From positions 5,022,001-5,086,000 of the forward strand of contig NZ_CP108364.1 of the NCBI RefSeq assembly GCF_035946055.1: a stretch of DNA of 64,000 bases, in the 5' to 3' direction. Within the stretch, counting starts at the first letter, position 1; every line of letters starts with the position of its first letter. A program made the position numbers and the translations under genes. Shown here piece after piece: positions 25,416-47,728 of this stretch. Origin of the DNA: Streptomyces sp. NBC_01341. Lineage in GTDB: Bacteria > Actinomycetota > Actinomycetes > Streptomycetales > Streptomycetaceae. The notes under the pieces were generated by a model. The model ran no database searches, was not told where the DNA came from, and saw only the letters and a program-made list of their open reading frames with translations.

Positions 25416-25500
25416 TTTCAGACGCTCTCATTGAGGGCGGCCCTGCAGGGGCCGCCCAACACTGTGTGCGAGCTTCCTCGTTACCTCTGACGGTGTTGGG
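25398..25500. other. Left junction and terminal sequences of the comEC element
   Basis: Host codons CAC TTC (25398-25403) meet TTCTCC (25404-25409), which matches the inverted GGAGAA at the right end. An imperfect palindrome follows, CGCTCTCA-T-TGAGGGCG (25423-25439), then a perfect 9-bp hairpin GGGCGGCCC/GGGCCGCCC (25435-25457). An enclosing 8-bp inverted repeat, CCCAACAC/GTGTTGGG, lies at 25455-25462 and 25493-25500. These are candidate recombinase arm sites or an insulating hairpin before the recombinase operon. Confidence 0.65.
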
Positions 25501-25521
25501 TTCTCTCAGTCGGAGGGGTAA

Positions 25522-31367: not shown

Positions 31368-31696
31368 GCGCGTTCACGCGTATCGGCGAGCGGATCGTCG
31401 AAGGTGCTCACCACCCACTCGGGTGCCAGCATGACGGGGCGGGTGCGAGTGAAGTCGCCTTCTTGTTGGAACCGCATGACCAGGCCGAGGCCGAGAAGGC
31501 CAGCCTCTCCATTGAGACCGAAACGCAGCCTTCCTTCGTGGGATGCTGCCGGAGGCGCGACCAAGCTGGCGAAAACTGACCGGTTGTGGCTGGCTATTGG
31601 GCGTGGCGGTGGAAATTGGAGGGGTACGCGCGTACTTCGCCGCTTAGTCTCTCTAGTTCGCCCATCTTGCGGCGACCCCTACACGAGGAGGCGCCG
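31368..31696. other. 329-bp stretch without a confident gene
   Basis: A minus-strand frame (31298-31564) gives RLRFGLNGEAGLLGLGLVMRFQQEGDFTRTRPVMLAPEWVV when read through, which sounds protein-like. It has no clear ribosome site and overlaps the previous gene, so it may be a gene remnant. The last 20 bases hold the GAGGAGG ribosome site of the next gene. Confidence 0.35.
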
Positions 31697-32839
31697 ATGG
31701 CCACCGATGGCCCGGTGACATGGGACGAGCTGCTGGCCGAACCATTCAACATCCACTCGGTCACGACCCACAACAACGTCGTCCTCGATGCGATGCGGGA
31801 CATGTTTGACCTGACCGACGGGGCGTTGAACCGCATCATGCGTGCCGATCACCTCAAGCTCACCCAAACCCTGGACGAGTTTGGCATCGCCTACAGCAGC
31901 CTCGCTAAGGCGCTGGTGCCGGATCACCGCCGCAAAGAGATCGCTCTCCTCTTCGACTCCGCTGTGGCCTCCTTGAGCTCCAACGGCTTCTACGGCATTG
32001 ACGTGGCGGAGGCGTGGATAGCGGGTTTGCCGCGACCGCGAAAAGGAGTCCCCGTCAACTCCATCCTGCGCGGCGACATCCTCTACGGCACCCGCGATGA
32101 AGTGCAGGCGGTCATGGACAGGGACGTCGTCTACCACCAGCCGTTCACGGTCATCCACCCATCTCAGGTGTACTGCGTGTACGTCACGAACCTGTCCAAG
32201 GAGCAGGCCAGCACGCTCATCTCCAGCGCCGCAGAGCACCCCGCCTACGTCGGGCACGCCGACTGCACTGACCGCAGCGTCCTCAAGGAGATCCTGGGCC
32301 GATCCCTGGCGAATTCTGGCCTTCGCGTGGGCGACATGATGCTGGAAGGCGTGGCCGAACCCGGCGAGACGCCCAACGGCGCAGGGCTGCCGTTTGAGGC
32401 GCTCGGCTTTACGCCTAGGCCCGTGCTCCACGAGCTGTTCCTGCCGTTCCTTGGCTATCGCATAAACAGCCAACTCACCGGCCGGAACCGTGAAGACAAC
32501 CGTTCAGCGCTCACCGCACTCAGCCCTGATGCCGCACACCTGGAAGCCCCCGACATCTGGATGACGCCGGCTCGCTATGGGTACCTCCAGGACGGCAAGC
32601 ACCGTGACTCTTTGGAGCAGGCCGGCCTGCTCACCTTGAGCCAGCCCGCATTGGAGGCCGCAGTCAGCAGACTGGTAGCACAGGGTTACCTGTATAACCT
32701 GCGCCTCAACGAGTACGGGAACCTGCTTTACACAGCACTGGTTGATGTCAAGGTGGAGGACGGTCGGTACCGGACCTTCACGATCGGACTCAAGTTCAAT
32801 TCGCAGGACAAGCGCGTCGAGCTGACGACGTTCTTCTGA
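31697..32839 (+). CDS. Unknown cargo protein (380 aa)
   Basis: A soluble-looking 380-residue protein starting at ATG 31697 behind a perfect GAGGAGG site. I do not recognise a family. It has a helical N-terminal part (LDAMRDMFDLTDGALNRIMRADHLKLTQTLDEFGIAYSSLAKAL) and a strand-rich centre (RDVVYHQPFTVIHPSQVYCVYVTNLS). No clear nuclease, kinase or membrane motif is present. It stands alone between the recombinase operon and a decayed IS, so it may be a single-gene function or the surviving part of a longer module. Confidence 0.75.
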   Translation: MATDGPVTWDELLAEPFNIHSVTTHNNVVLDAMRDMFDLTDGALNRIMRADHLKLTQTLDEFGIAYSSLAKALVPDHRRKEIALLFDSAVASLSSNGFYGIDVAEAWIAGLPRPRKGVPVNSILRGDILYGTRDEVQAVMDRDVVYHQPFTVIHPSQVYCVYVTNLSKEQASTLISSAAEHPAYVGHADCTDRSVLKEILGRSLANSGLRVGDMMLEGVAEPGETPNGAGLPFEALGFTPRPVLHELFLPFLGYRINSQLTGRNREDNRSALTALSPDAAHLEAPDIWMTPARYGYLQDGKHRDSLEQAGLLTLSQPALEAAVSRLVAQGYLYNLRLNEYGNLLYTALVDVKVEDGRYRTFTIGLKFNSQDKRVELTTFF

Positions 32840-32894
32840 CCCTCCCGCTATTGCTCGTTTTCGGGTTTCCGCGCCTAGATGCAATACCGGTGCT

Positions 32895-33345
32895 TTAGGG
32901 CTTCGTCCGTGGGGTTGGGGATGTTTTGGTGGGCTTAGCAAGGACGACGACTGGGGTGTCCGGGCGAGGCGGATTGTTGTGTTCGGTGCGTTTGAGCGCC
33001 CAGTTGGACATTTTGCGTTTGATCACTCGCGGGTTGGACCGTAACCGTCGTGGTTCCAGGAGACGTTCGGTGATTTCATGCAGGGTCTGCGTGAGCGCCC
33101 GGGTGAGCCGGGTGGGGGGAAAGTCCCACCTGGCTGGAGGTCTGCCGGCGGACGACGCGCAAGGTGCGGGTGAAGGACATCCGGTCCGGGTCCTCTCTCT
33201 CGTGCTGGGCGGCCTGGTGCATGAGGTCGCGCAGGGCGTGGTGCACGAGGAGGAACGCGAAGATCTCCTGCTCGGCCCCGACCGGATGCTGGGAGCGCAG
33301 GACGAAGCGGGGACCGCCCAGGTGGGTTTTGATCTCGTCGATGGT
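32895..33345 (-). pseudogene. Remnant of an IS4-family transposase (3' part, frameshifted)
   Basis: Read on the minus strand, two frames join to give the C-terminal part of an IS4-type transposase: TTIDEIKTHLGGPRFVLRSQ with FAFLLVHHALRDLMHQAAQ and SFTRTLRVVRRQTSS in one frame, then a shift near 33100-33147 into SNPRVIKRKMSNWALKR in another. The N-terminal two thirds, with the first catalytic acids, are gone. It cannot be active. Confidence 0.7.
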
Positions 33346-33484
33346 CGTCTTGCAGGTCTCGCCGCGACGAGCCGGTGCGGTACTTCCACGCGATGGCCTC
33401 CAAGGTTCGACGGTGGTCGGCGCATCGTCGACCGCAGACCGGATCGGTCGGGTATCGCCAGCTCGATCCGGTCTCATATCGCAT
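33346..33484 (-). pseudogene. Fragment of an IS5-family transposase N terminus
   Basis: The minus-strand peptide RTLEAIAWKYRTGSSRRDL (33353-33409) matches the familiar IS5-type EAIAWKYRTGSPWRDLP block. It abuts the IS4 remnant directly, so two unrelated insertion sequences have been joined by deletion or recombination. Confidence 0.6.
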
Positions 33485-33656
33485 CAGTGATCACTAATCG
33501 GACGGACATATCCGATCGATCGACGAGGAGGTCAAGGAGGCATCCTCTAGCCATCACCCCGCCCTTCGAGGCGCTGGGCTCGACTCGCACCGCTGGTCTG
33601 TGAGTGAACCAGCGTGCGCAAGTCACCAAAGTGGGCAATGGATGCACAGAAATTAA

Positions 33657-33697
33657 GCTAGCGTGCTATGTTGATCTACCTTCGATAAGTGGCTAGC
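33657..33697 (+). promoter_or_regulatory. Paired GCTAGC sites upstream of the XRE/ImmA gene pair
   Basis: GCTAGC occurs at 33657-33662 and 33692-33697, 35 bp apart, in an unusually AT-rich region just before the ribosome site of the next gene. The pair could be an operator for the XRE protein encoded downstream, by analogy with self-regulated toxin-antitoxin operons. Confidence 0.3.
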
Positions 33698-33710
33698 CCT
33701 TGGAGGGGTC

Positions 33711-34517
33711 ATGGCTGATGGGGTCACGCCGTCGCAGTGGGCCGTCGAGCGATTCGGTGAGCAGGCCGCAGAGGTGACGAAGCGCGTCGTCACCGGGCTG
33801 GCGCGCGGTCAGCGGTCAGCCCGCTTGGTCCAAGTGGCAGCTAAGAACGCGGGAGCCAAGGATAAGCGGCCCTACGGCAGCATGTGGGCTACGCGCTATA
33901 GCCAGGTCATCGAACAGTTCGACTTGGCGGACATGCCTGGGTACGAGGCGCGTAAACCCAAGGGGGCGTCGTACAGCCTGGCCGTAATCAACGGGTGCGT
34001 ATTGATCCCATTTCGACACGCCACGTCGCTGAAGGAGCCGATCTCCAGTGCAAAACTAAGCACGAAGATTCCCAAACAGGTGTCCCGGGATAACGGCGTG
34101 GAGCCGGCGCAGACGCTGTTCGACGTCCTCGGCTCCTCCGAGGTGGTGACGGATCCGTCGGTAGCCGATGCGGCCTCGGCGGCCAGGGCCGAGAAGTTGA
34201 CGGTGGTGTACATCGCGTACGTCGCTAACTCTGACAGCGACGAAGTTCTGGGCGCCTGGTGGGGCACTCCGAACTCACTGGAAGACGACGGCACGATGTC
34301 GTGGTCACCCGAGCGGCTCGACATGAGCATCGCAGTCGCGCAGTCCTCCAGTGACGCTCGTGGCAGCCTTCACGGCGCGGGCACTGACATCCCCACGCGC
34401 GGTTTCGCCGAGGGTGCCATTCCTTCGTTGGTCGTCACTCCACGCTCCGAGGTCGCCCACCGTCCGTCCGCTGAACGAGAACCAGCCATTCCTGAGGCAG
34501 AAGACAGTAATGAATGA
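33711..34517 (+). CDS. Unknown partner of the XRE/ImmA-IrrE protein (268 aa)
   Basis: A 268-residue protein with a good ribosome site (TTGGAGGGG). The N-terminal part is helical and basic (VTPSQWAVERFGEQAAEVTKRVVTGLARGQRSARLVQVAAKN). A strand-rich middle part contains INGCVLIPFRHATSL and VYIAYVANSDSDEVLGAWWGTPNS. The last 50 residues are disordered. I do not recognise the family. Its stop overlaps the start of the XRE/ImmA gene by 8 bp, a tight coupling typical of two-component toxin-antitoxin or defence modules, in which this would be the candidate effector. Composition is lower in GC than the backbone. Confidence 0.75.
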   Translation: MADGVTPSQWAVERFGEQAAEVTKRVVTGLARGQRSARLVQVAAKNAGAKDKRPYGSMWATRYSQVIEQFDLADMPGYEARKPKGASYSLAVINGCVLIPFRHATSLKEPISSAKLSTKIPKQVSRDNGVEPAQTLFDVLGSSEVVTDPSVADAASAARAEKLTVVYIAYVANSDSDEVLGAWWGTPNSLEDDGTMSWSPERLDMSIAVAQSSSDARGSLHGAGTDIPTRGFAEGAIPSLVVTPRSEVAHRPSAEREPAIPEAEDSNE

Positions 34518-35736
34518 GGATAACCAGCCGACACTGTTCACCACGTCTGGACGCGGATTGCGTAAAGGCCGCGTCAGCCTGGGGCAGCCCTCACCCGCGG
34601 CGGTTCACGAGGTATTCGATCCCGCCCGGCTAACTCAGGCGCGCAACCTTGTTGGGATGACTAAGAGGCGGCTGGCCGACGAACTCGGGGTGACGCCGGC
34701 CGCAGTAAGCCAGTACGAGATGGGCACCAACCGACCTCGCCCAGATTTGTTGCCGCGGCTGGCTGAAACTTTGAATGTGCCGTTGACATTCTTCTTGTCA
34801 GGGCGTCCTCACGCACGGCTGGACCCCTCGGCTGCGCACTTTCGCAGTCTTCGCAGCACCCGAGCCTATCAGCGTGCCAAGGCTGTCGCGTTTACTGAGC
34901 AGGTCTGGGAGTTGACCTATGCGCTGGAGAAGCGTGTCCAGCTGCCGATGGTGGACCTGCCCGGCTTTACCGGTGGCGAGGTCCACCCGGGTACTGAACT
35001 ACCCAGTGATCCAGCCTCAGCCGCCCGAGCCTTGCGAGTTGCATGGGGGCTAGGCACCGGACCAATTACTCACCTAGTTCGGCGACTGGAAGCACACGGA
35101 ATAGTGGTGATCACTCCCCAGCGCGACGAGGATCTGCGTTCCGTCGACGCCTTTTCCACATCACACCTTCCGCGCCCGATGATCGTGCTGACACCGAACA
35201 GGACGGATGATGTCTACAGGCATCGGTTCAGCGCAGCCCATGAGTTGGGCCACTTGACCCTGCACGGCGAAGCTACTCCAGGTGACATCACTCAGGAGCG
35301 GGAGGCTGATGCTTTTGCAGCAGAATTCCTCACGCCCCGCGAGTCGATCCTGCCTGAGCTGCCTAGTCGGGCAGATTTGCACAAGCTGTCACAACTGCGA
35401 AATGCGTGGGGGGTTTCGGTACACTCTCTGCTCTACCGCTGCCGAGAACTCGGCCTCCTGTCAGACTCCTCGGCCAGTCGCGCCTACCAGCGCTTGAATG
35501 AGCTAAAGGGGCAGCCCGGATTCGCTCCGGAACCCCTGGCTGGTTTCCCTAGCGAGCAGCCCGCGCTGTTGTCTCAAGCATTCAGCCTCGCTTGCGATCA
35601 CGGTCTGTCGGTCACGGAACTTGCACGTGAGCTGGCCTGGACAGTTCCTCAAGTTCGGCAGATTCTCGGCATAGAGGGAGATCGTCCGATCCTTCGACTG
35701 GTCAGTAGCGCGCCCCAAGCATCTGAAGCCGTGTGA
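34510..35736 (+). CDS. XRE helix-turn-helix protein with ImmA/IrrE metallopeptidase domain
   Basis: A 408-residue protein. An XRE-type HTH lies at about residues 42-96 (LTQARNLVGMTKRRLADELGVTPAAVSQYEMG). The C-terminal half is an ImmA/IrrE (COG2856, M78) zinc peptidase with HELGH in SAAHELGHLTLHG and a following EREADAFAAEFLTP. A short extra helical segment closes the protein (LSVTELARELAWTVPQVRQILG), probably a second HTH. Proteins of this build cleave or sense partner regulators in mobile elements and serve as antitoxins in Xre-COG2856 modules. It is co-translated with the unknown gene upstream. Confidence 0.85.
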   Translation: MNEDNQPTLFTTSGRGLRKGRVSLGQPSPAAVHEVFDPARLTQARNLVGMTKRRLADELGVTPAAVSQYEMGTNRPRPDLLPRLAETLNVPLTFFLSGRPHARLDPSAAHFRSLRSTRAYQRAKAVAFTEQVWELTYALEKRVQLPMVDLPGFTGGEVHPGTELPSDPASAARALRVAWGLGTGPITHLVRRLEAHGIVVITPQRDEDLRSVDAFSTSHLPRPMIVLTPNRTDDVYRHRFSAAHELGHLTLHGEATPGDITQEREADAFAAEFLTPRESILPELPSRADLHKLSQLRNAWGVSVHSLLYRCRELGLLSDSSASRAYQRLNELKGQPGFAPEPLAGFPSEQPALLSQAFSLACDHGLSVTELARELAWTVPQVRQILGIEGDRPILRLVSSAPQASEAV

Positions 35737-36023
35737 CTCCGGGCTGAAGTGCTTTGAAAGGAAGCTTCAGCCCTGGCATCCGATTCTCATTGTGGCGCTG
35801 CTAGTCGTCGAGAGGATCGCCCGCATGCTGGTCGTGTTGGGCCGCACCCAGGGATCTGCAACCTGTGCCCTTCTCCGCCTGCCCCGAGTCTTGGAAGCTC
35901 TGAGCCTCTTCCTTCCGGTCTGAACTCGCCGATCCATAGTCGCGGTGTTGAAAATCGACCTCGGCGGACGCCTCGATGGCGCGATGATGGGGCGAGTAGA
36001 TCAGATCGAAGGGGGCGCTCAAC

Positions 36024-38549
36024 GTGCCGTTGGACTGGAGCAAGGTTGACTCTGGTGAAACCGAACCGCTGCTGCGACCACGGGACATCTATGTAGCAGG
36101 CCCCCGGCCGTGGGCCTATCTGCGTCATGAGCAGGGCGAGGTGCTGGACCGCTGGTTCGAGCGTCGCACCGACAGAGATGTAGTGATCAAGCAGAACACG
36201 GGCGGTGGCAAGACTGCTGCGGGCCTGTTGATCGCCCAAAGCACATTGAATGAAGGTGTTGGGAAGGCCGTCTATCTCGCAGGAGACACTCACTACGCAA
36301 CCGGTCAGGTTCGGGAGGAAGCCGCGAGGCTCGGGCTCGCGACGGTCGTGGATCCACGAGATCCCGCCTTTCAGGCGGAGCGATCCATCCTCGTGACCAA
36401 CTTCAAGAAGTTGTTCAATGGCATGTCCGTATTCGGAGTAGCTGGTAGCAACCGCCCGACCATGCCGCTCGGCGTCGTCGTCATCGATGACGCTCACGCA
36501 GCCTTGACGACCGTCACTGGCCAGTTCCAGCTCTTCATCCCCCGCGAACACAAGGTCCACGACACGCTCGTGGCCATGTTCGCAGGCGAACTGAAGGATC
36601 AGGCCCCCAAGCATTGGCGTGATGTCCAGGCCGGCGACTACTCCGCACTCGTGCGCATCCCCTTCTGGGCCTGGTCCGATCGGCACCAAGAGGTCATGGA
36701 TCTACTCCACCCACACGGAGATGATGAAACCTTCAAGTATACCTGGCCGCTCGTTGCGGACGTGCTGCCTTTGTGTGCCGCGTCCGTGACAAGCCGCGGC
36801 GTGGAGATCCGGCCTCCGTGCCCTCCCGTCAGCGCGATCCCGGCCTTCACCAATGCTCAGCGCCGCGTCTACCTGACAGCAACCCTGGCGGACGACAGCG
36901 CTTTGGCCACTGTCCTGGATGCTGCTCCGCCACTTCTGTCGCGTCCGGTCACCCCGGGCAGTGCCGCAGACCTGGGCGACCGACTGATCCTCGCGCCGCT
37001 TGCCCTTAATCCGGCACTGGATGAAGAAGCAGTGCGCCGCATGGCTCAGCAGTTTGCACACGGTGACCGAAACGGTGACGGCGTGCCTGACAGCAAGCCG
37101 GTCAACGTGGTCGTCATCGTGCCCAGCGCGAATCGGGCTACTGCCTGGAAGCCGTACGCCGACCGGACTCACGCGGCGAACACCTTGGAGGCCGGGGTCA
37201 AGGAGCTGCGCGAGGCTGAGCACGTCGGACTCGTCGTACTGGTGAACAAGTACGACGGCATCGACTTGCCCAACGACGCCTGCCGACTACTCATCCTCGA
37301 TGGGGTGCCCCTGCCCTTGGACGCTGCCGAACGTCGGGAGGCATCTCTTCTTCCCGACAGCCGCTTCCGGGTGGCCCAGGGTATCCAGCGGATCGAGCAA
37401 GGCATGGGCCGTGGGGTGCGGGACCGAGAAGACTACTGTGCAGTTCTTCTCATGGGTGCCGAGCTCGGTCTCGCCATTCGTGATCCCCGTCGTCTTGATC
37501 TCTTCTCCCCCGCGACCCGTGCGCAACTGCGAGTAAGCCAGCGTGTCGCTGACATGATCGCCGGCGAGGGACTGCCGCAGGTGAGGGAAGCCATCGATGC
37601 CTGTTTGGAACGCCAACAACACTGGCTGACCCCGAGTCGGCGGGCCCTGGCCGATGTCCAGTACGAGCAAGTGAGTAACGTTCGTGCTGAGGCCACAGCT
37701 GGCCGAGAGGCGTTCGACCTGGCCTGTGTTGGACAGTACCGGGCCTCGGCGGATCGCCTTCAGGTCGCCATCAACAGCCTGGAGGACAAGGCACTACGCG
37801 GCTGGCTGATGGAACAGAAGGCGACTTACCTTCATCACGTAGACCCCCTTGCCGCACAGAACGTACTGGCAACCGCAGTCATGGAGAACCCAAGGGTTCA
37901 GCGGCCGGTCGACGATGTGACTCCGCGCCGGATCAGGGCTACGGCTGTCCAGGCCCGTGCCGCTTCCAAATTCCTCGGGCGGACCTACTCAGACGGCGTC
38001 CAATTGGTGCTCGGCGTCCGTCAGATTTTCGACCGCATCGTGTGGGGCGATGAGGAGAGGGCGGATGACGCTGAGGCTGCATGGGAACTGTTGGGATGCC
38101 ATCTCGGGTTCCGTAGCGATCGGCCTGACAAGACGTTCAAGATCGGCCCGGACAGTCGGTGGGCCATGACGAGCGATCACCACGGCATCATCGAGCTCAA
38201 GACAGGCTGCACCACTAACTCGATCTCCAAGGACGATATTGATCAGCTCGGCGGGAGCGTTCGGTGGCATGAATCGATCGATCCCAGCGTCCGGGCTACT
38301 CCGGTCATGCTTCACCCAAGCAGCATGCTCCATGAGCAGAGTCCGCCTCTGCCCGGCCTGCGGGTGGTTACGCCGTCGAAGCTCGACGATCTGAGGGAGG
38401 CCGTGGCAAGCGTTGCCACGGCCTTGGCCGCCGGCCAAGGCAGATGGGCCGATGAGCAGGCCGTCGCTGCCGAGTTCGCCCGGGCCAAGCTCACTGCGGG
38501 AGCGCTCCTCGCTACCTTCGCGGAGACGGCGCGACCGGCGCCGGCGTGA
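36024..38549 (+). CDS. DExH-box helicase fused to a PD-(D/E)XK nuclease domain
   Basis: An 841-residue protein. Superfamily 2 helicase motifs are clear: Walker A QNTGGGKT (57-64), DDAH box VVVIDDAHAAL (151-161), YLTATLADDS (283-292), a motif V-like LVNKYDGIDLPND (406-418) and motif VI QGIQRIEQGMGRGVRDRED (452-470). The last motif and the GGGKT loop resemble the XPD/DinG branch. The C-terminal part reads LGFRSDRP, IGPDSRWAM and HGIIELKTG, giving a plausible nuclease triad Asp710, Glu724 and Lys726, with a later IDQLGGSVRW. It starts with GTG behind AAGGGGG. Such a fusion fits unwinding plus cutting of invading DNA. It may act alone or with the Shedu-like nuclease 600 bp downstream. Confidence 0.82.
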   Translation: MPLDWSKVDSGETEPLLRPRDIYVAGPRPWAYLRHEQGEVLDRWFERRTDRDVVIKQNTGGGKTAAGLLIAQSTLNEGVGKAVYLAGDTHYATGQVREEAARLGLATVVDPRDPAFQAERSILVTNFKKLFNGMSVFGVAGSNRPTMPLGVVVIDDAHAALTTVTGQFQLFIPREHKVHDTLVAMFAGELKDQAPKHWRDVQAGDYSALVRIPFWAWSDRHQEVMDLLHPHGDDETFKYTWPLVADVLPLCAASVTSRGVEIRPPCPPVSAIPAFTNAQRRVYLTATLADDSALATVLDAAPPLLSRPVTPGSAADLGDRLILAPLALNPALDEEAVRRMAQQFAHGDRNGDGVPDSKPVNVVVIVPSANRATAWKPYADRTHAANTLEAGVKELREAEHVGLVVLVNKYDGIDLPNDACRLLILDGVPLPLDAAERREASLLPDSRFRVAQGIQRIEQGMGRGVRDREDYCAVLLMGAELGLAIRDPRRLDLFSPATRAQLRVSQRVADMIAGEGLPQVREAIDACLERQQHWLTPSRRALADVQYEQVSNVRAEATAGREAFDLACVGQYRASADRLQVAINSLEDKALRGWLMEQKATYLHHVDPLAAQNVLATAVMENPRVQRPVDDVTPRRIRATAVQARAASKFLGRTYSDGVQLVLGVRQIFDRIVWGDEERADDAEAAWELLGCHLGFRSDRPDKTFKIGPDSRWAMTSDHHGIIELKTGCTTNSISKDDIDQLGGSVRWHESIDPSVRATPVMLHPSSMLHEQSPPLPGLRVVTPSKLDDLREAVASVATALAAGQGRWADEQAVAAEFARAKLTAGALLATFAETARPAPA

Positions 38550-38650
38550 CCTTGTCTGGGCGTGCGGTATAGGCGTGGGCGGTGCCACCGGGATCCCGAA
38601 GCCGACGGCTATCTGGGGCAGGGTGTCGTGCTTGCGCAGGTACACCAGAG
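38550..38650 (-). pseudogene. Frameshifted remnant of an IS transposase N terminus
   Basis: On the minus strand YLRKHDTLPQIAVGFGIPV (38586-38645) continues, after a frameshift at about 38586, with GTAHAYTARPDK. Together this matches the HTH region of an IS5-type streptomycete transposase. Only about 35 residues survive. It starts right at the end of the helicase gene. Confidence 0.6.
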
Positions 38651-38727
38651 CGACGAGCGCGCGCGTTGGTGCGGCGGGAGCTTGCAGCGGTGGTCACCCT
38701 CGCGGGTGACGATGAGCAAGGTTACCC

Positions 38728-38837
38728 GCTCGACCTGCGCGTGAGGCAGGTCGAGCGCGACAGGATAGGCAACCAATGAGGCACCTGCGCTGGTGAGTTG
38801 AGACCTCGAATGTCTCCCTCAACGGCACAGGTGCCTC
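38728..38837. repeat. Two strong inverted repeats between the helicase and Shedu genes
   Basis: GCTCGACCTG (38728-38737) and CAGGTCGAGC (38747-38756) form a 10-bp hairpin with a 9-nt loop. GAGGCACCTG (38778-38787) and CAGGTGCCTC (38828-38837) are a second perfect 10-bp pair, enclosing an inner GTTGAG/CTCAAC pair. They follow the IS fragment and may be IS ends, a terminator for the helicase gene or a structured RNA. Confidence 0.45.
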
Positions 38838-38899
38838 GTGCGTTGCGCCCTCGACGCCGTCACTCCATCGGTGACCACTCTGAAAACGCTCACGAGAGG

Positions 38900-39034
38900 A
38901 TGCGCCGCGAGAATGCCGAGAAGCGCAAGCAGGAAGCCCAGTGGTCGCGGGCGGAGTGGTTCGACACGCGGGAGCGGAAGATGGAGGACTTCGCCCGTCT
39001 GTGGGACGGGACCGGGGCCGGGAACGAACAGTGA
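38900..39034 (+). CDS. Possible small helical protein (44 aa)
   Basis: ORF beginning MRRENAEKRKQEAQWSRAEWFDTRERKMEDFARLW, rich in charged helical residues, with a GAGAGG lying very close to the ATG. It is the only protein-like sequence between the IS remnant and the Shedu gene. It may be a gene tail rather than a complete gene. Confidence 0.3.
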   Translation: MRRENAEKRKQEAQWSRAEWFDTRERKMEDFARLWDGTGAGNEQ

Positions 39035-39127
39035 ACCGCCTGCCCGCGCATCTCTCACCTGACGACGGCAGGCAGGCCCGATCGTTCGGGAGATGGAAAG
39101 TCCCGATAGGCCGACGCGTGACTGCTC

Positions 39128-39133
39128 TACCCT
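39128..39133 (+). promoter_or_regulatory. -10 box of the Shedu gene
   Basis: TACCCT 13 bases before ATG 39147 predicts a transcript with a 5' leader of only a few bases. No ribosome site is visible between them, so near-leaderless translation is likely. Confidence 0.4.
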
Positions 39134-39146
39134 CCATCCTGGACAC

Positions 39147-41216
39147 ATGACGTCCAGCAACCCCGCCCCGACACATGCGCAGCCATCGATCACAATGGTG
39201 ACGCGGCACGACATCTTCAACTACCTGCGCGGGATATCGAGCCCCTGGTGGGGGAAGCTGGACGAGGTTGCGTTCCTGGAGGTCCTATACGACCTGGACC
39301 GACCTACGGCCGCGGACAGCCGACTCCCGACTGTCCGCGCCGACATACAGCAGCACCGGTTTAACAACTGTGACCTGCCTGACGACTGGATCTTCGAGGA
39401 CTCCCGGCTGGAGCTCTCCGACGGACCGGACGAGGTGCTGCTCGCCTTCCTCGCACGAACCGTTCATCCCGAGGTCGCGGCCGACGTCGAGGCGGCCACG
39501 AAACAGGTCGAGGAGCTGAACCGGCTGCTGGCTCCGGACGGATGGCGCCTGCGTGCCTACGAGTTCCTCTCTGGCCGCCCTATCTACACGCCGGTCCGAC
39601 TACCGCCCACGGGCCTGTTGGTCCCGCTGCCGCTGAACGACGACGACACCAGCAAGCTCGACTTGGTCCTCGGGCAGACCTACAGCCTCTTGGACTGCGC
39701 CGGCGAGGAGACCGCACGCGACCTGCTACGCACCGCTGTCCTGACCCTGCGCCGCGATGGTGGCTTCATCCACCCCATGCCTGGTGACAGTTGGACAGCG
39801 GACACCTACGAGGCGGTCCTGACTGTGGAGCGCGAGCTCCAGCCCGCCTGTACCCCGGAGATGAAGGAGGTGATTTGGCGGACCCTGGAGCACCTGCTCA
39901 GCCAGCTCGGACGTACCGACGTCCTGGACCTCGTGGTTGAAGGTGATACCCGGCCTCTGCCCAACATCTCGCCGGACTGGCGGACTCAGGCTGCGGCACC
40001 CGCTACCCCCATCGTTCGCGGTCTCCGCCTCCCCTTCTCCACTACCGAGTTCGACGTCACCTGCGGGGACTTCGCCGATCTGGAGATCCGCGGCTCGCAG
40101 GACAGCAGCGGGTTCCACTACCTCTACGACACCCGCGCACGCCGGATGATCACCGACTTCGTCCTCGACGACCGGCCCCGGGTGGCCACACTGTGCAACG
40201 TCACCATCATCAAGAAGGGCGACACCTTCACGCCGAGGATCAAGCTGTGGAAGAGGGATAAGAGGAAGGCAGGGGAGGTCTCCGCCACGCAAACGATGCC
40301 CGATAACGGGGCCACCCGGGCTGTCAAAGCGCTCGTCGACACCGGGGACGTCCACGAGAACTTCTGGAAGGTCATCAACTTCCTCCAGGGTTGCACGGGG
40401 CTGAGCACGCCCGGCGGCTCCCTCCATCTCGTGGCCAGGGACGAGGTCCACCTGACCCAGCTGCTGACCGGCCAGGACCGGACGATGGTTCTCGGTGCGG
40501 TCAGGACCGCAATCGGCGGTGGGCTCACCGAGGAGGACATCCGGCTGATCAGCAACCGCAGAGAGCAGCTCCAGAGGTTCGAGCAGCTACTGACAGATCC
40601 GGACTATTTCCAACAGGAGGAGGGTCTGGCAACGACGCGCGGGCCGGAAGCGGTCTGGCAGGCTTTCTTCGAGGCGAACCAGTGGATCTTCGGCTACGGA
40701 CTCAACCTCATCGCCTGCGAATCCATCGACGACGGCAAGCTGGAGCGCATCACCACCGGTGCGGACATATTCGGCGGAGCCGGGAAACGTATCGACGCCA
40801 TCATGCGTTCCAAGGGCCTGATCAGCAGCATGCTCTTCTGCGAAATCAAGACCCACGACACGGAGCTACTCGCCAAGACCCCGTACCGCGCAGGCGTCTA
40901 CCAGGCCTCCAAAGAACTGGGCGGCGGCGTGGCGCAGGTGCAGAAGACCGCCAGCAAGGCCCAGCAGCACATCTCCCGCGAATTCCTTACCCGCATCTAC
41001 GACGACGACGGCACCCCGACCGGCATCGAACTGTCCACTACCCGGCCCCGGCAGATCGTGGTGATCGGGAGTCTGCTCGAGTTCACTCACCATGGCGCCG
41101 TGAACCCGGAGAAGATCAACTCCTTCGAGCTGTACCGGACATCGATCCAGGACGTCGAGATCATCACGTTCGACGAGCTCTACCAGCGAGCGTGCTTCAT
41201 CGTCGAAGATCGCTAA
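39147..41216 (+). CDS. sduA: Shedu-type defence nuclease with AbiJ-like N-terminal domain
   Basis: A 689-residue protein. The C-terminal 200 residues match the Shedu (DUF4263) nuclease domain: VWQAFFEANQWIFGYG, GKRIDAIMRS (Asp550), FCEIKTHDTELL (Glu566, Lys568) and YRAGVYQASKELGGGVAQVQK. Shedu proteins are single-gene anti-phage systems whose domain is a PD-(D/E)XK nuclease. The N-terminal 130 residues (HDIFNYLRGISSPWWGKLDEVAFL, FLARTVHPEV, GWRLRAYEFLSGRPIY) resemble the AbiJ N-terminal domain type 3 seen in abortive-infection proteins, probably a sensor. A large middle region (about 155-500) is not recognised. It carries its own promoter-like box, so it can work as an independent unit. Confidence 0.88.
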   Translation: MTSSNPAPTHAQPSITMVTRHDIFNYLRGISSPWWGKLDEVAFLEVLYDLDRPTAADSRLPTVRADIQQHRFNNCDLPDDWIFEDSRLELSDGPDEVLLAFLARTVHPEVAADVEAATKQVEELNRLLAPDGWRLRAYEFLSGRPIYTPVRLPPTGLLVPLPLNDDDTSKLDLVLGQTYSLLDCAGEETARDLLRTAVLTLRRDGGFIHPMPGDSWTADTYEAVLTVERELQPACTPEMKEVIWRTLEHLLSQLGRTDVLDLVVEGDTRPLPNISPDWRTQAAAPATPIVRGLRLPFSTTEFDVTCGDFADLEIRGSQDSSGFHYLYDTRARRMITDFVLDDRPRVATLCNVTIIKKGDTFTPRIKLWKRDKRKAGEVSATQTMPDNGATRAVKALVDTGDVHENFWKVINFLQGCTGLSTPGGSLHLVARDEVHLTQLLTGQDRTMVLGAVRTAIGGGLTEEDIRLISNRREQLQRFEQLLTDPDYFQQEEGLATTRGPEAVWQAFFEANQWIFGYGLNLIACESIDDGKLERITTGADIFGGAGKRIDAIMRSKGLISSMLFCEIKTHDTELLAKTPYRAGVYQASKELGGGVAQVQKTASKAQQHISREFLTRIYDDDGTPTGIELSTTRPRQIVVIGSLLEFTHHGAVNPEKINSFELYRTSIQDVEIITFDELYQRACFIVEDR

Positions 41217-41731
41217 GCAGAGGTCACGTACTGTGCTCGCCCACGACCCCATTGTCTCCCGGCCGGCGGGCGGTACCAGGGTGTGGCGTGGCTGCTTGCC
41301 GCACGATCTTGACCACCGAATCAGGTGACCTCCGCCGACCGCGTGCCCGACCTTCGGGGGGCGAAGCAGTTGGAGACTTGCCGGTCTGGCCGCGTGTCTT
41401 CGCTCCGGTCTCCGAACTGGCCGGGCTTCACGGGGGCAGGGCGAGGTGCTGCAGGAGCTAACTGAGGGGTGAGAGACTGTTCGACGCTATGGAGGTAGCC
41501 GGCGACGGGGGCGCCGCTGCGGAGATGGCTGTGATCTTGGCTGGCTGCTTGGTGGAGGGCCGACAGGCCGAAGCCGGCGCCGACTGCGGCGCCGAGGAGA
41601 GGCTTTCCGGCCAGTGCGCCACCGCTGACGGCGGCGATTCATGCCGGCAGATCGAACCATCCCGGGCATCTTCCTCTGATCTGCCAGATGATCCAAACGA
41701 AACGGCCCGGGTCCATGTCGGTCTCATGCGG
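41217..41731. other. 515-bp stretch without a confident gene
   Basis: Several overlapping GC-rich frames exist but none has a ribosome site. A minus-strand frame gives IAAVSGGALAGKPLLGAAVGAGFGLSALHQAA, a glycine-rich membrane-like string, but a stop lies directly before it and no ATG, GTG or TTG start is available. It may be a decayed gene downstream of the minus-strand membrane protein. Confidence 0.4.
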
Positions 41732-43267
41732 TCACTTGCGGCTCTGGCCACGCATCACATCGAGCACATCGCCCGGGGCCAGCCGATCACGGTACAAAAG
41801 CGCCCAAGTGACGGCGCCGACCACGGCAATGATCTGAGTCGATCCGGCAGCCGAGAGCTTCGACAAGCCTGCTGCGATGGCGGCACCGGTCATCACCACA
41901 CCAAGGATGACCAGCCGCACCCATTCGCGATTGACGGCGGGATCTACGTCTTTCAAGTCCTTGGGATCGAGCAGGGCGAGTATGCGGCCTTGCGCGTACC
42001 GTTCAGTAATTGTTACCAGCATGCGCGTCATCTCCTCGAACACCTGGCCTGTGTCGGCGTCGATGTCCTGCCGTGTTTCTAGCCGCCGGACCGCGCCTAC
42101 TACGTCGGCCGCATGCTTCCGGTACTCGCGCCGGCGCGGTCCGGGCACCTGACGATGCCGGACCTTCCACGCCGACCACACCACTTGCTCAACCTTGGAG
42201 AGGTCCACGCGCGGAACGTAGACAGCGCTATGGGGCTGCATGACGGTCTGGTAGTAGTGACGCCGGGCCGCCCCCGCGCGGCCGACACAATCGATCAGAA
42301 CCGCGACAGGCCGGGTACGCCTGGCCGCTCCCGGGTGCAGACTCAGCAGCGACCGCAGCCACCACCCGCGAGGAGGAGGGGCGGCGAAGCCTGGACCGCG
42401 CCTGCTGTCTGCCCGGGTCGGCCCGTGCTGGCCGAGTAGTCCCAGCACGGCTCGTAGCGCAAGGAGAAGCGCGGCAGCCAGAACGAACCCGAACACCGCA
42501 GTAGCCGCCTCGGCGGGGCGGCCTTCCGGGGCACCCAGTGCTGGAAGATATTGGGCTGCTTTCCTCCAGATCGACTCACCGAAGGCCCGGAAGATCGTCA
42601 CTACCGTCACATCGATGTCTGGTTGCTCGCCGGTCCAATCGACCTGCCGGGCCGGACCCCACAAGCCGCCGCCGGGCGCCCACCACACAACGGGAGCTTT
42701 TTCGCTCTCCGCCCACACATGGGACGACCACCTGATGACGAAATTGACGATGCCCCCCAGGTTGAGCAGGATCTGCAACAGGAAGAACGCCTTGACGAGG
42801 TAGGCGACCGCAGCCAGCGGCGCGATTTGATGCCACGAGCGCAACGCAGCGCGCACGTGCCGGCCAACAGGAAACAGCCTGTAGGCATCCGGGCCAAAAG
42901 GCCGCCTCACCCACGCCAGATGCTCCGCAACCCTGCGCCTGCTCCACCGGACGTAGGAGGTCACTACACGGCCCAGAGTGTGTGAGTACACCCACTCGCC
43001 CGTGGCGAGCAGAGCCCGTCCGACGAGTTCGGCCAGGGAAAGCAGCCGTTGCAGGAACCACCGGATCCGCAACACGTCACGCGGGTCGACCGTCTCCGAT
43101 ATCCCCCATACGACTATGCCCGGCAGTGCAAGCACTAGGAACAAGCTGACCAGGAACAAGACCACTTCAAGGACCATGCCCAGAGCAGCCCACGCAATTT
43201 CGATCACCCCGACAGTCTGGCCGAGCACACGCGGTGGCGAGCTCTGTTGGCCTGATATCTCGCGCAC
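41732..43267 (-). CDS. Multi-pass membrane protein of unknown function (511 aa)
   Basis: A 511-residue protein with hydrophobic segments near the N terminus (AALGMVLEVVLFLVSLFLVLALPGIVVWGI), at about 150-180 (IAPLAAVAYLVKAFFLLQILLNLGGIV), about 255-275 and two at the C terminus (LVILGVVMTGAAIAAGLSKL and IIAVVGAVTWALLYRD). Between them is a large cytoplasmic part with many Arg residues. No family is recognised. The GTG at 43267 has no good ribosome site; a start about 20 codons later at VIEIAW is possible. It reads in the same direction as the gene at 43590-44624 and may form a module with it, with the membrane protein as a possible effector. Confidence 0.65.
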   Translation of the reverse strand: MREISGQQSSPPRVLGQTVGVIEIAWAALGMVLEVVLFLVSLFLVLALPGIVVWGISETVDPRDVLRIRWFLQRLLSLAELVGRALLATGEWVYSHTLGRVVTSYVRWSRRRVAEHLAWVRRPFGPDAYRLFPVGRHVRAALRSWHQIAPLAAVAYLVKAFFLLQILLNLGGIVNFVIRWSSHVWAESEKAPVVWWAPGGGLWGPARQVDWTGEQPDIDVTVVTIFRAFGESIWRKAAQYLPALGAPEGRPAEAATAVFGFVLAAALLLALRAVLGLLGQHGPTRADSRRGPGFAAPPPRGWWLRSLLSLHPGAARRTRPVAVLIDCVGRAGAARRHYYQTVMQPHSAVYVPRVDLSKVEQVVWSAWKVRHRQVPGPRRREYRKHAADVVGAVRRLETRQDIDADTGQVFEEMTRMLVTITERYAQGRILALLDPKDLKDVDPAVNREWVRLVILGVVMTGAAIAAGLSKLSAAGSTQIIAVVGAVTWALLYRDRLAPGDVLDVMRGQSRK

Positions 43268-43589
43268 GAGAACGGCTACCGACGCCTAGTCAGCCGCCCA
43301 CCTGGCCAACGTCGGCGCCGCGCACGATCTGACATAGATGCTCCTCAAGCCCCTGTCCCGCGTGCGGGCACGGATACGAGGGCTGGACGTTCGACCTTCC
43401 CGTGCCCCGGGTTCAGGGTCCTTCGTCGGGAGGCTGTCCGCAGCGCGCAGAGGTGGCGACGCCGACGTCGAGAACGTCCAACTCGTCCAGTCGACGATGT
43501 CGGCGAGGCGCGCGGAGGCAGGGCTAGGAGCAGCAGTAACAGGGCCGCCGCCTCCAAGGATTACGGGGCTGGTGGCGCGGGCCTCGGCG
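43268..43589. other. Gap between two minus-strand cargo genes
   Basis: A minus-strand frame (43286-43618) overlaps the end of the upstream gene and stops 18 bases before the membrane protein start, so it could be a small linking gene. The predicted 110 residues are low complexity (Ala, Arg, Pro, Ser) and convincing evidence is lacking. Confidence 0.3.
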
Positions 43590-44624
43590 TCAGCATTCGC
43601 CCTCCTCCCGCGCGCCACGGGCTACTTCGGCGAGGAAATGCGTGGCAAAGGACAGCAGCGGGCCGGCTTCCCCGTGGGAGGCTCTCCACCACAGGTAGGT
43701 GGCTGGGTCGAGGATCTGGCACGTCATGAGCGCGTCCCAATCGGCGGCGGCCCGGCACCTCTGCATGTGGTGGTCCTCTTGCGGGAAGTCTCCCGTACGC
43801 CGTGCCTGGCCCACATGCAGAACCGCTCCCCGTACGGCATCGTTGCCGCTTTCATCCAGCAGACGCAGCGCGCGGTCGGTGTCGGTGAGGTTGGCCGTGC
43901 TGACCATGTCGATCAGGCTGACCATGCCGCCGCTTGGCCTGGCTCCAGACTTGTGGCCCTGTTCTTCAATGAGCTCGCGGAGGCGTCTCGCTGGAGGGTT
44001 GGAGGAGAGGAAGGCATCGTCCAGGGCCTTTTGGCTCAGCTCGGTGAGAGGCTCCCCGATCTCGGCGCACATGATCCGGAAGGCATTGCGCAGGCCGGTG
44101 CTCGGCGATCGCTTGTCGGGTCTCTCTCCGGTGGATTCCTGCACGTCTTTGACGAAGGTATCGATCTGCGCCTGGCTGAGCCCGCGGGATCGGGCGAGGT
44201 GGGCGACCATCTCCAGCACTGGCTTAGGGGAGACGGGAAGTAACGCCTCGATGGCCTTCCCCGATTGGGCGTTGATCTTGGGGATCGGCGGTCCGTCCTC
44301 GTATCTCTTCAGGTTCTCAACGCCTTTGCGGATTGCAGTCCGGATCTCCCGGGTGGCGAGGGGATCCGGGTTCATCGCCAGCATCCTCCACCCCAGCACC
44401 GGGCACAGGTGGCCGCCAGAACGTGCCATAGCGCAGATTTTCGCGGCCGTGACTGCGTTGTCGAACTCTTCGGCCGTGGCGTTTACGGGCAGGCGCGGGA
44501 TGAAGCGCGCCCTGTAGTCCCGAAGAAGTGTCCGGTCGCTGTAGACGTCCAGGCCGTAGCCGGCGGCATTGAGGGCCTGCCGGACGGGACCGAACGCGGT
44601 GGGCGGCTCGTTGGTACGGCTCAT
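43590..44624 (-). CDS. Unknown cargo protein (344 aa)
   Basis: A 344-residue soluble protein that I do not recognise. It looks mainly helical, with segments such as ATAEEFDNAVTAAKICAMAR, GKAIEALLPVSPKPVLEMVAHLARSRGLS and LRELIEEQGHKSG, and a C-terminal region with QRCRAAADWDALMTCQILD. There are no membrane helices. It is divergent from the 44-aa peptide gene to its right and upstream of the membrane protein to its left. The arrangement suggests a sensor or regulator plus membrane effector, but this is inference. Confidence 0.65.
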   Translation of the reverse strand: MSRTNEPPTAFGPVRQALNAAGYGLDVYSDRTLLRDYRARFIPRLPVNATAEEFDNAVTAAKICAMARSGGHLCPVLGWRMLAMNPDPLATREIRTAIRKGVENLKRYEDGPPIPKINAQSGKAIEALLPVSPKPVLEMVAHLARSRGLSQAQIDTFVKDVQESTGERPDKRSPSTGLRNAFRIMCAEIGEPLTELSQKALDDAFLSSNPPARRLRELIEEQGHKSGARPSGGMVSLIDMVSTANLTDTDRALRLLDESGNDAVRGAVLHVGQARRTGDFPQEDHHMQRCRAAADWDALMTCQILDPATYLWWRASHGEAGPLLSFATHFLAEVARGAREEGEC

Positions 44625-44731
44625 GACCCGACGCTACGCGCAGACGCTGGCGCGGGGTCCAGTTTTCTGCCGACTTTCATTCCAACATCTGCGGTCCGAT
44701 GGGCTCTCGACAACGCAGAAGGGACACCAGA

Positions 44732-44866
44732 ATGTCGGAGTACGAGCAGGGGCAGGAGCGCGCGCTGGAGAGGAGCCTCAGCTGGGCCGCGTGGCGGAAG
44801 GTCGCGCTGCGGCTGGGATTGCGGCTGGTGCTGGAGCTGGTGTTCTGGCACCTGCGGAACATGTGA
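44732..44866 (+). CDS. 44-aa amphipathic peptide
   Basis: ORF MSEYEQGQERALERSLSWAA continuing with WRKVALRLGLRLVLELVFWHLRNM, with AAGGGA before the ATG. The second half would form a long amphipathic or membrane-inserting helix with Arg/Lys at both ends and Leu/Val/Trp in the core. It is divergent from the 344-aa gene, sharing about 105 bp of promoter region. It could be a small membrane toxin or a membrane-targeting subunit. Confidence 0.5.
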   Translation: MSEYEQGQERALERSLSWAAWRKVALRLGLRLVLELVFWHLRNM

Positions 44867-45151
44867 GCCGTCCGCGTGCCGTTGCTGAGATCTGACTGCA
44901 AGCTCAGCAACGGCGCCCGCGTCTAAACGAGTCCGCAGTGGTGGTCAAGTCGACTGCGCGACGTGTTCGGAAACGATCTTCAAGCAGGGGAAGTCGGCGC
45001 ACATCTACCTCGTCGTCAACTATGAGACTGGGGCGCCAATTCGGAACACCATGCGGTCAGCCGGCCCATGAATTGTTGGGCGAGATCTTGCTTAGCGAAT
45101 TCGCCTAATTGCTCTAGTCCTTGAATGTGAAGATGCCTATCGGGGAAGCAG
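44867..45151. other. AT-rich stretch with a gene fragment
   Basis: A plus-strand frame around 44925-45072 reads DCATCSETIFKQGKSAHIYLVVNYETGAP and ends with a stop, but it has no start codon after the preceding stop. It is probably the broken end of a lost gene. Base composition falls sharply here, marking a join between cargo pieces. Confidence 0.4.
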
Positions 45152-45472
45152 TCAGGTATGATTTATTGCATTTAGGTCAGAGGCGAACATCGTTGCCGCC
45201 GCCTTTAGCACGGTGTTCTTGCGTCGTAGTTCCATGATCTCTTTTTGTAGAAGACGGATGAGCTCCGCGTCGGTGATTTGAGATGCAGTGCCACCCCGGC
45301 CTTCTGTCTGAGCCTTTCTCACCCAATGCCGCAAAGCTTCGGGATGAATGCCTAGGAGCTCTCCCACCTCCTGTACCACTCCTGAACGGTCTGGTGATCT
45401 TTCCCTCATCTCAAGAACCAGTTGCACCCCGCGTTCGATGACTTCCTGTGGATACTTGCGGTGAGCGGGCAT
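45152..45472 (-). CDS. IS3-family transposase OrfA, orphan
   Basis: A 106-residue IS3 OrfA: RKYPQEVIERGVQLVLEMRE at the start, the HTH LLGIHPEALRHWVRKAQ, then the leucine-zipper-like ELIRLLQKEIMELRRKNTVLKAAATMFAS. The product ends shortly after that block. No OrfB catalytic subunit follows on the minus strand, so the element cannot transpose by itself. Composition is clearly lower in GC than the backbone. Confidence 0.8.
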   Translation of the reverse strand: MPAHRKYPQEVIERGVQLVLEMRERSPDRSGVVQEVGELLGIHPEALRHWVRKAQTEGRGGTASQITDAELIRLLQKEIMELRRKNTVLKAAATMFASDLNAINHT

Positions 45473-45613
45473 ACGTTAATCACTCCGCAGCTGATAGTAG
45501 GACTGCATCCGACTCGGTCGCTAACAAGTGCTAGCCACTCAGGCCAGAAGCAACACTGATTATGCACAGCTGTTCATGGCGGTCAAGCGGGTGCCGCTGT
45601 TCGAGTCAGTGGT

Positions 45614-45859
45614 GTGCCAGTACCGGATCACCCAAGCCCTGCCCTCCATAGCTTTGGTATGCATTTGCGTAAGTTGCGTGAGGAGCAAGGGCTCACGCTG
45701 GAAGAGCTAGCGGATAGGAGCGCAATGAGCTTCCGGGGTGTGGTCTACATCGAGCATGGGCGCCGCAATCCGAGCTTGACTACAATCCTCAGCTTGTCGA
45801 GGGGGCTCCAGATTTCCCCGTCGTCGCTCCTAAGCGTCTTCGATGAGCCGAGCGAGTGA
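45614..45859 (+). CDS. Small XRE-family regulator (81 aa)
   Basis: An 81-residue protein with a single XRE helix-turn-helix (LRKLREEQGLTLEELADRSAMSFRGVVYIEHGRRNPSLTTILSLSRGL). The start may be GTG 45614 or an ATG about 15 codons later (MHLRKLREEQG). No partner gene is obvious. It may be a leftover regulator of a restriction-modification or toxin-antitoxin system. Confidence 0.65.
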   Translation: MPVPDHPSPALHSFGMHLRKLREEQGLTLEELADRSAMSFRGVVYIEHGRRNPSLTTILSLSRGLQISPSSLLSVFDEPSE

Positions 45860-46010
45860 CAATGCCTAGGTTTGGTCCCATCGATAAAATGGGGCCGACC
45901 AGCAGCTGACCGCCCGCCGCTGAGGTCGCCGCCCGGCTCACCGCGACAATCAGATGCTGCGGGCTGAGTGCCAAAAGGCTAAATCATTGCGTCCCGGCGT
46001 CGCGTGGAGT

Positions 46011-46928
46011 TTAGCCAGGGAGTTCCCAGTCGAATGTCCGAGGATCTCCATGGATTGAACTCAGTCCGAGGGGCGAAATCAGCCATGCTTTGGTTAGAAC
46101 GCCGGGCCAGTCTTGGGTGATTTCAAAAAGCAATTGTCTGAGGATTAGCGGCGGAAGGTCAAACACCGGCTCCGGTTTTCCCTTCTTCCCGCGCATCGGT
46201 CGGCTATCGAGCAGGAGTCCGATGGGTTTATCCGGTGCGACCGCGCGCACGCGGGCAAGCTGTCTTTTGAGCTTGCTTTCCATCGCGCGCCCCACGCTGC
46301 TACGCATTTCTCCCACGTTGCAAGACCAGCCTTGACCATCGCGCGACACGTGTCCAGACCAGCCTGCTGTTAGATCATCGAAGGCGATGGTGACCCGGTG
46401 GTCGGCATCAGGGGCTTCGCAGAAGTCGATGGTGGGCAGGGGGAACGGCCCCTGCGGAGGTCTTCTGAGGTCGACAAAGGGCTTGCCTCGCTCGACCGCT
46501 TTGCTGGCCATTTCCACCACGCGACGATAAAGGCGATCACGCTCCTTCTTGCTCGCACCCATCCATGGCCCAGCACTGATCGATACCCAAAGGCCGCCGC
46601 CCGGTGCTTCCGCTGCCAGATCTTTAAGAAGATCGATCAGCTCGTGGGCGACGGTATCCTGCGTCGCAATGCGAAGAGGGTTCTCCTGCGGTGATGGCAC
46701 CACGGTGTGATCGACGAATCCGGCGACGCCGTTGATCTTGATTTCCGCGTCGACGGGAATCGCTGGAGAATACCTATATGTGCATTCCTGTCGCTCGGGG
46801 CTTCCTATCAGCTCAGCCAACAACCCCTGAAACCGCAGACCAGCGATCAGGGAAGCGAAGGCCGTCAGCTCCCGCGGCTTGTCAATCATCAGCCGCAGAA
46901 CGGACTCTGTTGCGTCGTCCGTGTTCAT
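46011..46928 (-). CDS. Unknown cargo protein near the right end (305 aa)
   Basis: A 305-residue protein starting at ATG 46928 behind AGGAG; the longer frame upstream has no support. It contains IPVDAEIKINGVAGFVDHTVVPSPQ, DTVAHELIDLLKDLAAEAPGGGLWVSISAGPWMG and KERDRLYRRVVEMASKAVERGKPFVDLRRP. The mixture of strands and helices hints at an enzyme-like fold, but I cannot name a family and see no sure catalytic residues. It is the last gene before the right end and reads inward. Confidence 0.7.
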   Translation of the reverse strand: MNTDDATESVLRLMIDKPRELTAFASLIAGLRFQGLLAELIGSPERQECTYRYSPAIPVDAEIKINGVAGFVDHTVVPSPQENPLRIATQDTVAHELIDLLKDLAAEAPGGGLWVSISAGPWMGASKKERDRLYRRVVEMASKAVERGKPFVDLRRPPQGPFPLPTIDFCEAPDADHRVTIAFDDLTAGWSGHVSRDGQGWSCNVGEMRSSVGRAMESKLKRQLARVRAVAPDKPIGLLLDSRPMRGKKGKPEPVFDLPPLILRQLLFEITQDWPGVLTKAWLISPLGLSSIHGDPRTFDWELPG

Positions 46929-47084
46929 CGCCACTCCTACCTGCTGGACACCATTCCAGCGGCCTGTTGCGCAACGCCGAAGTCTCACTCTTCCGCGTGG
47001 ATCTCGGGCAGGAAGCCTAACTCTCACCGCCGTGAGACCGAGCGGCAAGAAGCCCCATTGCCAGCCTGGTTGAGTCAACGAGTG

Positions 47085-47125
47085 GCACTCTCATGAGAGT
47101 GCACGACGGTGGAGAACACGTGCAC
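47085..47125. other. Right junction of the comEC element with 18-bp palindrome
   Basis: GCACTCTCATGAGAGTGC (47085-47102) is a perfect 18-bp palindrome sharing CTCTCAT and GAG with the imperfect palindrome at the left end. GGAGAA (47111-47116) mirrors TTCTCC at 25404. CACGTG (47117-47122) follows as the flanking hexamer, then host comEC resumes at CACGCC (47123). The palindromes stand about 20 bp from each host junction. Confidence 0.65.
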
Positions 47126-47728
47126 GCCGACCACGTACGCGGTCTCCCGGGCGTGCTGCGGGGCCGCGAGGTCGGCGCGATCCAGACGACGGTGCTCGAC
47201 GAACCACCCGAGCAGGCCGCCTTCGTGAAGCGGACGGCCGCGGCGGCCCACATCCCGCTGGTCCGGGCCGCTCCGGGTGAGCGGCGCAGGGCAGGCCCGG
47301 TCGACTGGCAGGTGCTGTGGCCCGCCGCGGCCGGGCGGGGCGCGCTGCCGGCTCCGGTGACCGAGGAGCCGAACGACTCCAGTGTCACGCTCCTGGTCCG
47401 GTCGGGAGGGCTGACCCTGCTGCTGCTCGGTGACCTCGAACCCCCTTCCCAGCAGGGGGTGTTGCGTGCCTTTCCGGCGCTACCACGGGTGGACGTTCTC
47501 AAGGTCGCGCACCACGGCTCCGCACATCAGGACTCCGCCCTGCTGCGCAGCGCCCGCCCTCGGCTCGCCCTCATCAGCTGCGGCGTGGACAACCCGTACG
47601 GGCATCCCGCCGCCCGCACGCTCGAAGCGCTCGAAGCGACGGGGGCGGAGATCCTGCGGACCGACAGGGACGGTCCGATCGCGGTCACGGGAAGCGGTAG
47701 GGGGCTTGCTGCGGCGGCTCGGTCATGA
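47093..47728 (+). pseudogene. comEC: comEC 3' part with element-derived start
   Basis: Encodes the rest of the ComEC metallo-beta-lactamase domain (HADHVRGLPGVLRGR, SVTLLVRSGGLTLLLLGDLEPP, VDVLKVAHHGSAHQD, LALISCGVDNPYGHP). The native C terminus of the gene is intact. The element supplies ATG 47093, and the reading frame MRVHDGGEHVHADHV restores the complete metal motif H-V-H-A-D-H. A separate domain protein of 211 residues could therefore be made if transcribed; the ribosome site is weak. Otherwise it is a dead fragment. Confidence 0.85.

Follow-up and report, generated by a model that had tools for sequence, protein, structure and literature searches.

The right edge of a mobile element in a Streptomyces comEC gene probably represents a recombination joint carrying a start codon of the element and a hexamer from its previous site

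The window, i.e. the entire stretch of 64,000 nucleotides that was analyzed, derives from a 7.4-Mb single-contig Streptomyces genome and contains a comEC gene (encoding the DNA-uptake channel) that is cut in two by an insert of 21,713 bp. The two parts of the gene, the ends of the insert and its left-end genes are located as follows, all on the + strand:

23376..25415, +: 5' part of comEC, an ORF of 679 aa ending with ...THFFSR and a stop codon located inside the element
25398..25403, +: hexamer CACTTC (His-Phe) at the left flank, codons native to comEC of the host
25404..47116, +: mobile element in full length (21,713 bp), with the termini TTCTCC...GGAGAA; similar junctions are found in relatives
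25424..25435, +: imperfect terminal motif GCTCTCATTGAG of the left end; the perfect form CTCATGAG occurs in several relatives
25522..26988, +: intA, tyrosine recombinase of 488 aa
26801..28891, +: tfp-like gene for a large protein; homology to relatives starts at about 26981
28888..30957, +: intB, large recombinase of 689 aa with near-invariant residues R369, H476xxR479, H502 and Y516
30954..31367, +: gene for a srap/tnpC-like small protein of 137 aa, labeled from gene order (PMC10214605)
47086..47101, +: palindrome CACTCTCATGAGAGTG of the right terminus, containing the ATG at 47093; a putative recombinase-site motif
47093..47728, +: ORF of 211 aa composed of element end, hexamer and comEC 3' part; truncated MBL domain
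47117..47122, +: hexamer CACGTG (His-Val) flanking the element on the right, a probable donor-site footprint

The labels intA, tfp, intB and srap were assigned from gene order and catalytic residues. The four genes occupy the left end in the window; all four are also present in 13 of the 15 relatives examined, in 12 of which they are closely spaced. Judged from its residues, the tfp-like protein may be recombinase-like, but without the full catalytic set.

At the right edge, CACGTG lies between the element end GGAGAA and the comEC sequence CACGCCGAC. An earlier note on this DNA had drawn attention to the ATG at 47093, and indeed this codon lies within the terminal palindrome, for which CACTCTCATGAGAGTG is the sole match in the window when up to 3 mismatches are allowed. 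It shares the frame of the comEC 3' part, opening an ORF that extends to 47728 and reads MRVHDGGEHVHADHV. Likewise, CACGTG encodes His-Val and recreates the sequence H-V-H-A-D-H, as had been noted. Among intact comEC genes the codons at this position specify His-Phe in 45 of 47 cases and His-Tyr and His-Leu in one case each; His-Val does not occur (0 cases).

Pfam profile matches show what the insertion leaves of the protein. The 5' part retains the whole Competence domain (PF03772, positions 1–264 of 270), confirming that a nearly complete channel protein remains. The further claim that the 3' fragment encodes an intact free-standing MBL domain is incorrect. The 3' ORF matches Lactamase_B at profile positions 51–193 of 196 only, while the first ~50 positions reside in the 5' part, in which positions 2–52 alone are matched, and weakly (E 0.077). 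For reference, the intact comEC of genome G354 matches positions 2–187. The MBL domain is thus split at about position 51 of 196 and the 3' ORF lacks a complete Lactamase_B domain. At the other edge, the left-end palindrome provides an in-frame TGA for the comEC 5' part in several relatives; in the window a TAG comes earlier.

Using IntA as query, relatives were detected in 27 of 392 genomes of the same genus, and in seven of the resulting loci the same comEC codon is occupied. A pattern scan of a genome collection yielded at least 120 matches; among the 120 listed, 8 were judged to be real comEC junctions and 112 unrelated; four of the 8 were new and the other four repeat genomes of the genus set. 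Hence, at least 11 comEC insertions (the seven loci plus the 4 new ones) could be compared. The right end TCTCATGAGA is invariant in all 11 comEC insertions examined, with the ATG at a distance of 24 nt from the terminus and in the comEC frame. The right hexamers vary, encoding HV, HF, HS, HA, HF, HD and HV in seven insertions and TV, QV, QN and RG in the remaining four. The first His of the motif is accordingly kept in 7 of 11 cases and replaced by Thr, Gln, Gln and Arg in the rest. The question raised earlier, whether other insertions keep both frame and motif, can therefore be answered in the affirmative for the frame within comEC (11/11), but not for the motif. On the left side, ten insertions have CACTTC, CATTTT or CATTTC, and the one in genome G092 has CACGAC. 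The pattern CA[CT]TT[CT] accordingly describes the left hexamer in 10/11 cases, but the right one in only 2/11, and the two hexamers flanking an insertion are unlike each other in 10 of the 11.

The same type of end is not confined to comEC. A survey of the 392 genomes with the right-end pattern returned 50 matches in 38 genomes, and none for the pattern read backward as control. Thirty of the 50 matches were given loci, and 26 right ends were read, of which 23 belong to these loci and 3 to others. The palindrome with its ATG is also present at right ends outside comEC, while half or all of the palindrome is found at left ends. With respect to the distance between ATG and terminus, two classes exist, 24 nt and 25 nt. 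Within the 24-nt class, six targets other than comEC were readable: SPO11-like, sigma-factor-like, the gene hit in G085, MFS-like, HATPase-like and EF-G-like. The names MFS-like, SPO11-like, sigma factor, HATPase and EF-G reflect our own reading of the sequences; Pfam gave no match for either of the MFS-like fragments or for those from the G085 and SPO11-like targets. Three of the six targets (SPO11-like, sigma-factor-like and G085) are hit in sense orientation and in frame. One, the MFS-like transporter gene, is hit in sense orientation but out of frame, as concluded from the joined flanks in G265 and from frame reading in G273, and two are hit antisense (G253 and G279). Together with comEC, sense in-frame insertion would hold for four of seven targets, which exceeds one in six and possibly indicates some bias. 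For the 25-nt class, 17 right ends were read; in 13, all of them ligase-type, the ATG does not share the frame of the target. Out-of-frame insertions of related elements, the result named in the earlier note as refuting its interpretation, are therefore present in both classes. This sister class (L236–L262) is placed in a gene for an ATP-dependent DNA ligase in 13 of the 17 ends read, with the DG[FYH]R motif one base into the hexamer; the ligase was confirmed by Pfam for 2 of the 3 fragments submitted. For G209, G320, G128 and G274 no right end was detected in the stretches examined, and the reading of targets left out G119, G081, G316, G175C5, G130, G165, G043, G149 and G369. Of note, G149 has five right-end pattern matches in one genome, which is unusually many.

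The origin of the right hexamers becomes apparent when the targets are compared with each other. Intact copies of the second target, the SPO11/topoisomerase VI-like gene, mostly carry CAGGTC or CAGGTG at the site, others CAGGCG, CAGGCC or CAGCTG. In G310, where the element resides in comEC, the right hexamer is CAGGTC as in the SPO11-like target. Conversely, G109, which has the same right-end type in the SPO11-like gene, carries the CACTTC of comEC. A further element in the SPO11-like gene (G181) carries CAGGTC, and the one in the sigma-factor-like gene of G035 is flanked by GTCTTC on the left and CACTTC on the right. The comEC insertions fit a rule according to which the hexamer of the target would stay on the left and that of the donor would appear on the right, the reciprocal pair being the clearest case. 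As the left hexamer is native, the right hexamer variable and the footprints reciprocal, CACGTG in the window is most readily explained as a footprint left from an earlier site. No donor of CACGTG was identified: searching 394 genomes of the class for this hexamer adjoining the HADH codons returned 2 matches. One (G720, L234) was rejected as it belongs to an unrelated MBL hydrolase (HVHADHVGW), and the other (L235) since its sequence is unlike comEC. Equal hexamers on both sides, and hence no information, were encountered in G253, G279, G085 and G175C26. In G092 (L012, L049) the sides are swapped relative to the other ten comEC insertions, with CACGAC on the left and the comEC-like CACTTC on the right; either the side rule would not be absolute, or the native site of this host differs.

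Comparison of the loci thus provides the boundaries, the constant ATG, the variable right hexamers, the reciprocal footprints and the loss of frame elsewhere. In our view, the right edge is very probably the attR site of a tyrosine-recombinase element of the SE/GInt/Tn554 type, in which the ATG belongs to the element end and CACGTG is the donor footprint. The ATG would be a fixed component of the terminal palindrome TCTCATGAGA, 24 nt away from the terminus, and the palindrome itself presumably serves as binding site for a recombinase. Crossover would span six bases, which are CACTTC in comEC. Strand exchange is predicted to proceed in the direction known from SEs and Tn554, i.e. the hexamer of the target would remain on the left, while the six bases left of the element at the donor site would be transferred to the right. 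CACGTG would then mark the previous home of the element rather than a repair of comEC. The frequent restoration of His-x could be attributed to the tendency of the right overlaps to start with CA (9/11). Maintenance of the frame in comEC would follow from a site that starts on a codon boundary and from a spacing of 24 nt, a multiple of three. At some other targets the frame is lost: the end supplies the ATG, but the target sets the frame.

It could be argued that the right end is adapted to provide a start codon, as the left palindrome provides a stop, keeping the 3' part of the target translatable and making insertion cheaper. The in-frame ATG in 11/11 comEC insertions and at the SPO11-like, sigma-factor-like and G085 targets agrees with this idea, as do the absence of in-frame stops from all 11 comEC right ends and the 8 of 11 3' ORFs that are open through the usual C-terminal region. 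However, the ATG is out of frame in the MFS-like gene (G265, G273) and in 13/17 ends of the 25-nt class, and two targets are hit antisense. Moreover, a Shine-Dalgarno-like match precedes the ATG in only 1 of the 11 comEC insertions, which is not that of the window, as compared to 4 of 7 control starts in the window, and no match to a sigma-70-type promoter was detected in 46700–47300. The loss of the first His in 4/11 insertions, the three broken 3' ORFs and the incomplete MBL domain likewise speak against such an adaptation, which we regard as improbable. The suggestion that the arrangement lowers the cost of insertion gains no support here. The ATG belongs to the conserved palindrome at every target read, even where the frame is lost.

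About as improbable is the possibility that expression of the 3' ORF is driven from elsewhere and that it functions alone or jointly with the 5' part. The dN/dS values of the 3' part of the window (G000) against two intact orthologues are 0.175 and 0.208, compared to 0.213 between those two, so that no relaxed constraint is visible. Yet the nearest relatives differ strongly at synonymous sites, so that most of this divergence is probably older than the insertion, and dN/dS cannot distinguish a recent insertion from function. The truncated domain and the 3/11 broken fragments also argue against function, and the 3' ORF probably gives rise to no functional product. Finally, a chance ATG and a chance hexamer could have met at a single insertion. 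From one insertion alone this could not be excluded, but the combination of ATG, spacing and site is repeated in 11 comEC insertions, and the hexamers match native sites of other targets, which makes pure coincidence the least plausible explanation and one we hardly believe. The remark that the arrangement might be due to chance nevertheless came close for the frame. Still, ATG spacing and frame recur in 11/11 cases in comEC, which is more than chance. Read from the sequences, this recurrence is the common anatomy of one element type at one common target site and does not amount to 11 independent coincidences.

Returning to the attR reading, the element can be compared with three known types. 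SEs are strand-biased circularizing integrative elements reported from Gammaproteobacteria only (PMC10214605). For SEs as well as Tn554, the hexamer of the target is described as remaining on the left, while six bases from the left of the donor end up on the right (PMC10214605). The element in comEC shares with SEs the order intA-tfp-intB-srap at the left end, the large second recombinase, the small number of target genes and the 6-bp overlap rule, but its host, Streptomyces, falls outside Gammaproteobacteria. GInts have a four-gene operon, ginABCD, and produce staggered cuts of 6–7 nt and a heteroduplex at the joint; the hosts named in that paper are Bacteroidetes, Firmicutes, Verrucomicrobia and Proteobacteria, but not Actinobacteria (PMC5385486). 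Common features are the four-gene recombination operon at one end, site-specific insertion within genes and presumably the short staggered cuts with a heteroduplex. The catalytically incomplete protein is third in GInts (GinC), but, by our reading of residues, second here. Tn554 is described as carrying tnpA, tnpB and tnpC, and its reported hosts are Staphylococcus and Enterococcus (PMC10214605). It resembles the present element in the 6-bp footprint without target duplication, the TnpC-like small protein and the imperfect inverted terminal repeats, but it has three genes and no tfp counterpart, whereas here an extra large protein is encoded between the two recombinases. Likened by gene order, residues and footprint, the element likely works as an SE does and may be considered an actinobacterial variant, which we refrain from filing as an SE. 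In the open-licence literature on Tn554 and comEC, on integrative elements in Streptomyces comEC and on GInt-type elements of actinobacteria, we recognized no description of such an element. Interruption of comEC by transposable elements as such is already reported for Piscirickettsia (PMC12955456).

What is new is that four-gene elements resembling SEs are present in Streptomyces and repeatedly occupy comEC. If the footprint rule holds, the previous location of each copy can be read from its right hexamer, and hexamers collected across genomes would allow movements between comEC and other targets to be mapped, no experiments being required. Caution is also advised, as 'rebuilt' protein motifs at such joints can be by-products of recombination. 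Motifs of DNA-processing genes are hit in comEC (HxHADH) and in the ATP-dependent DNA ligase (DG[FYH]R), and a SPO11-like gene is hit as well. It is conceivable, albeit unlikely, that a group of multi-recombinase elements in actinobacteria has specialized in conserved active-site motifs of DNA-processing genes, maybe favored as loss of the element is prevented when DNA uptake or end joining is disabled, and that in part of this family the palindromic ends provide the split gene with a stop codon (left end) and a start codon (right end).

The cargo at 34351–41216 resembles a defence island encoding an XRE/ImmA protein (RmrA-like), a PDC-S28 helicase and the Shedu protein SduA, the latter bearing an AbiJ N-terminal domain 3. 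A small HTH_Tnp_1 transposase ORF at 45152–45472 in the right part of the element is perhaps the remnant of an insertion sequence.
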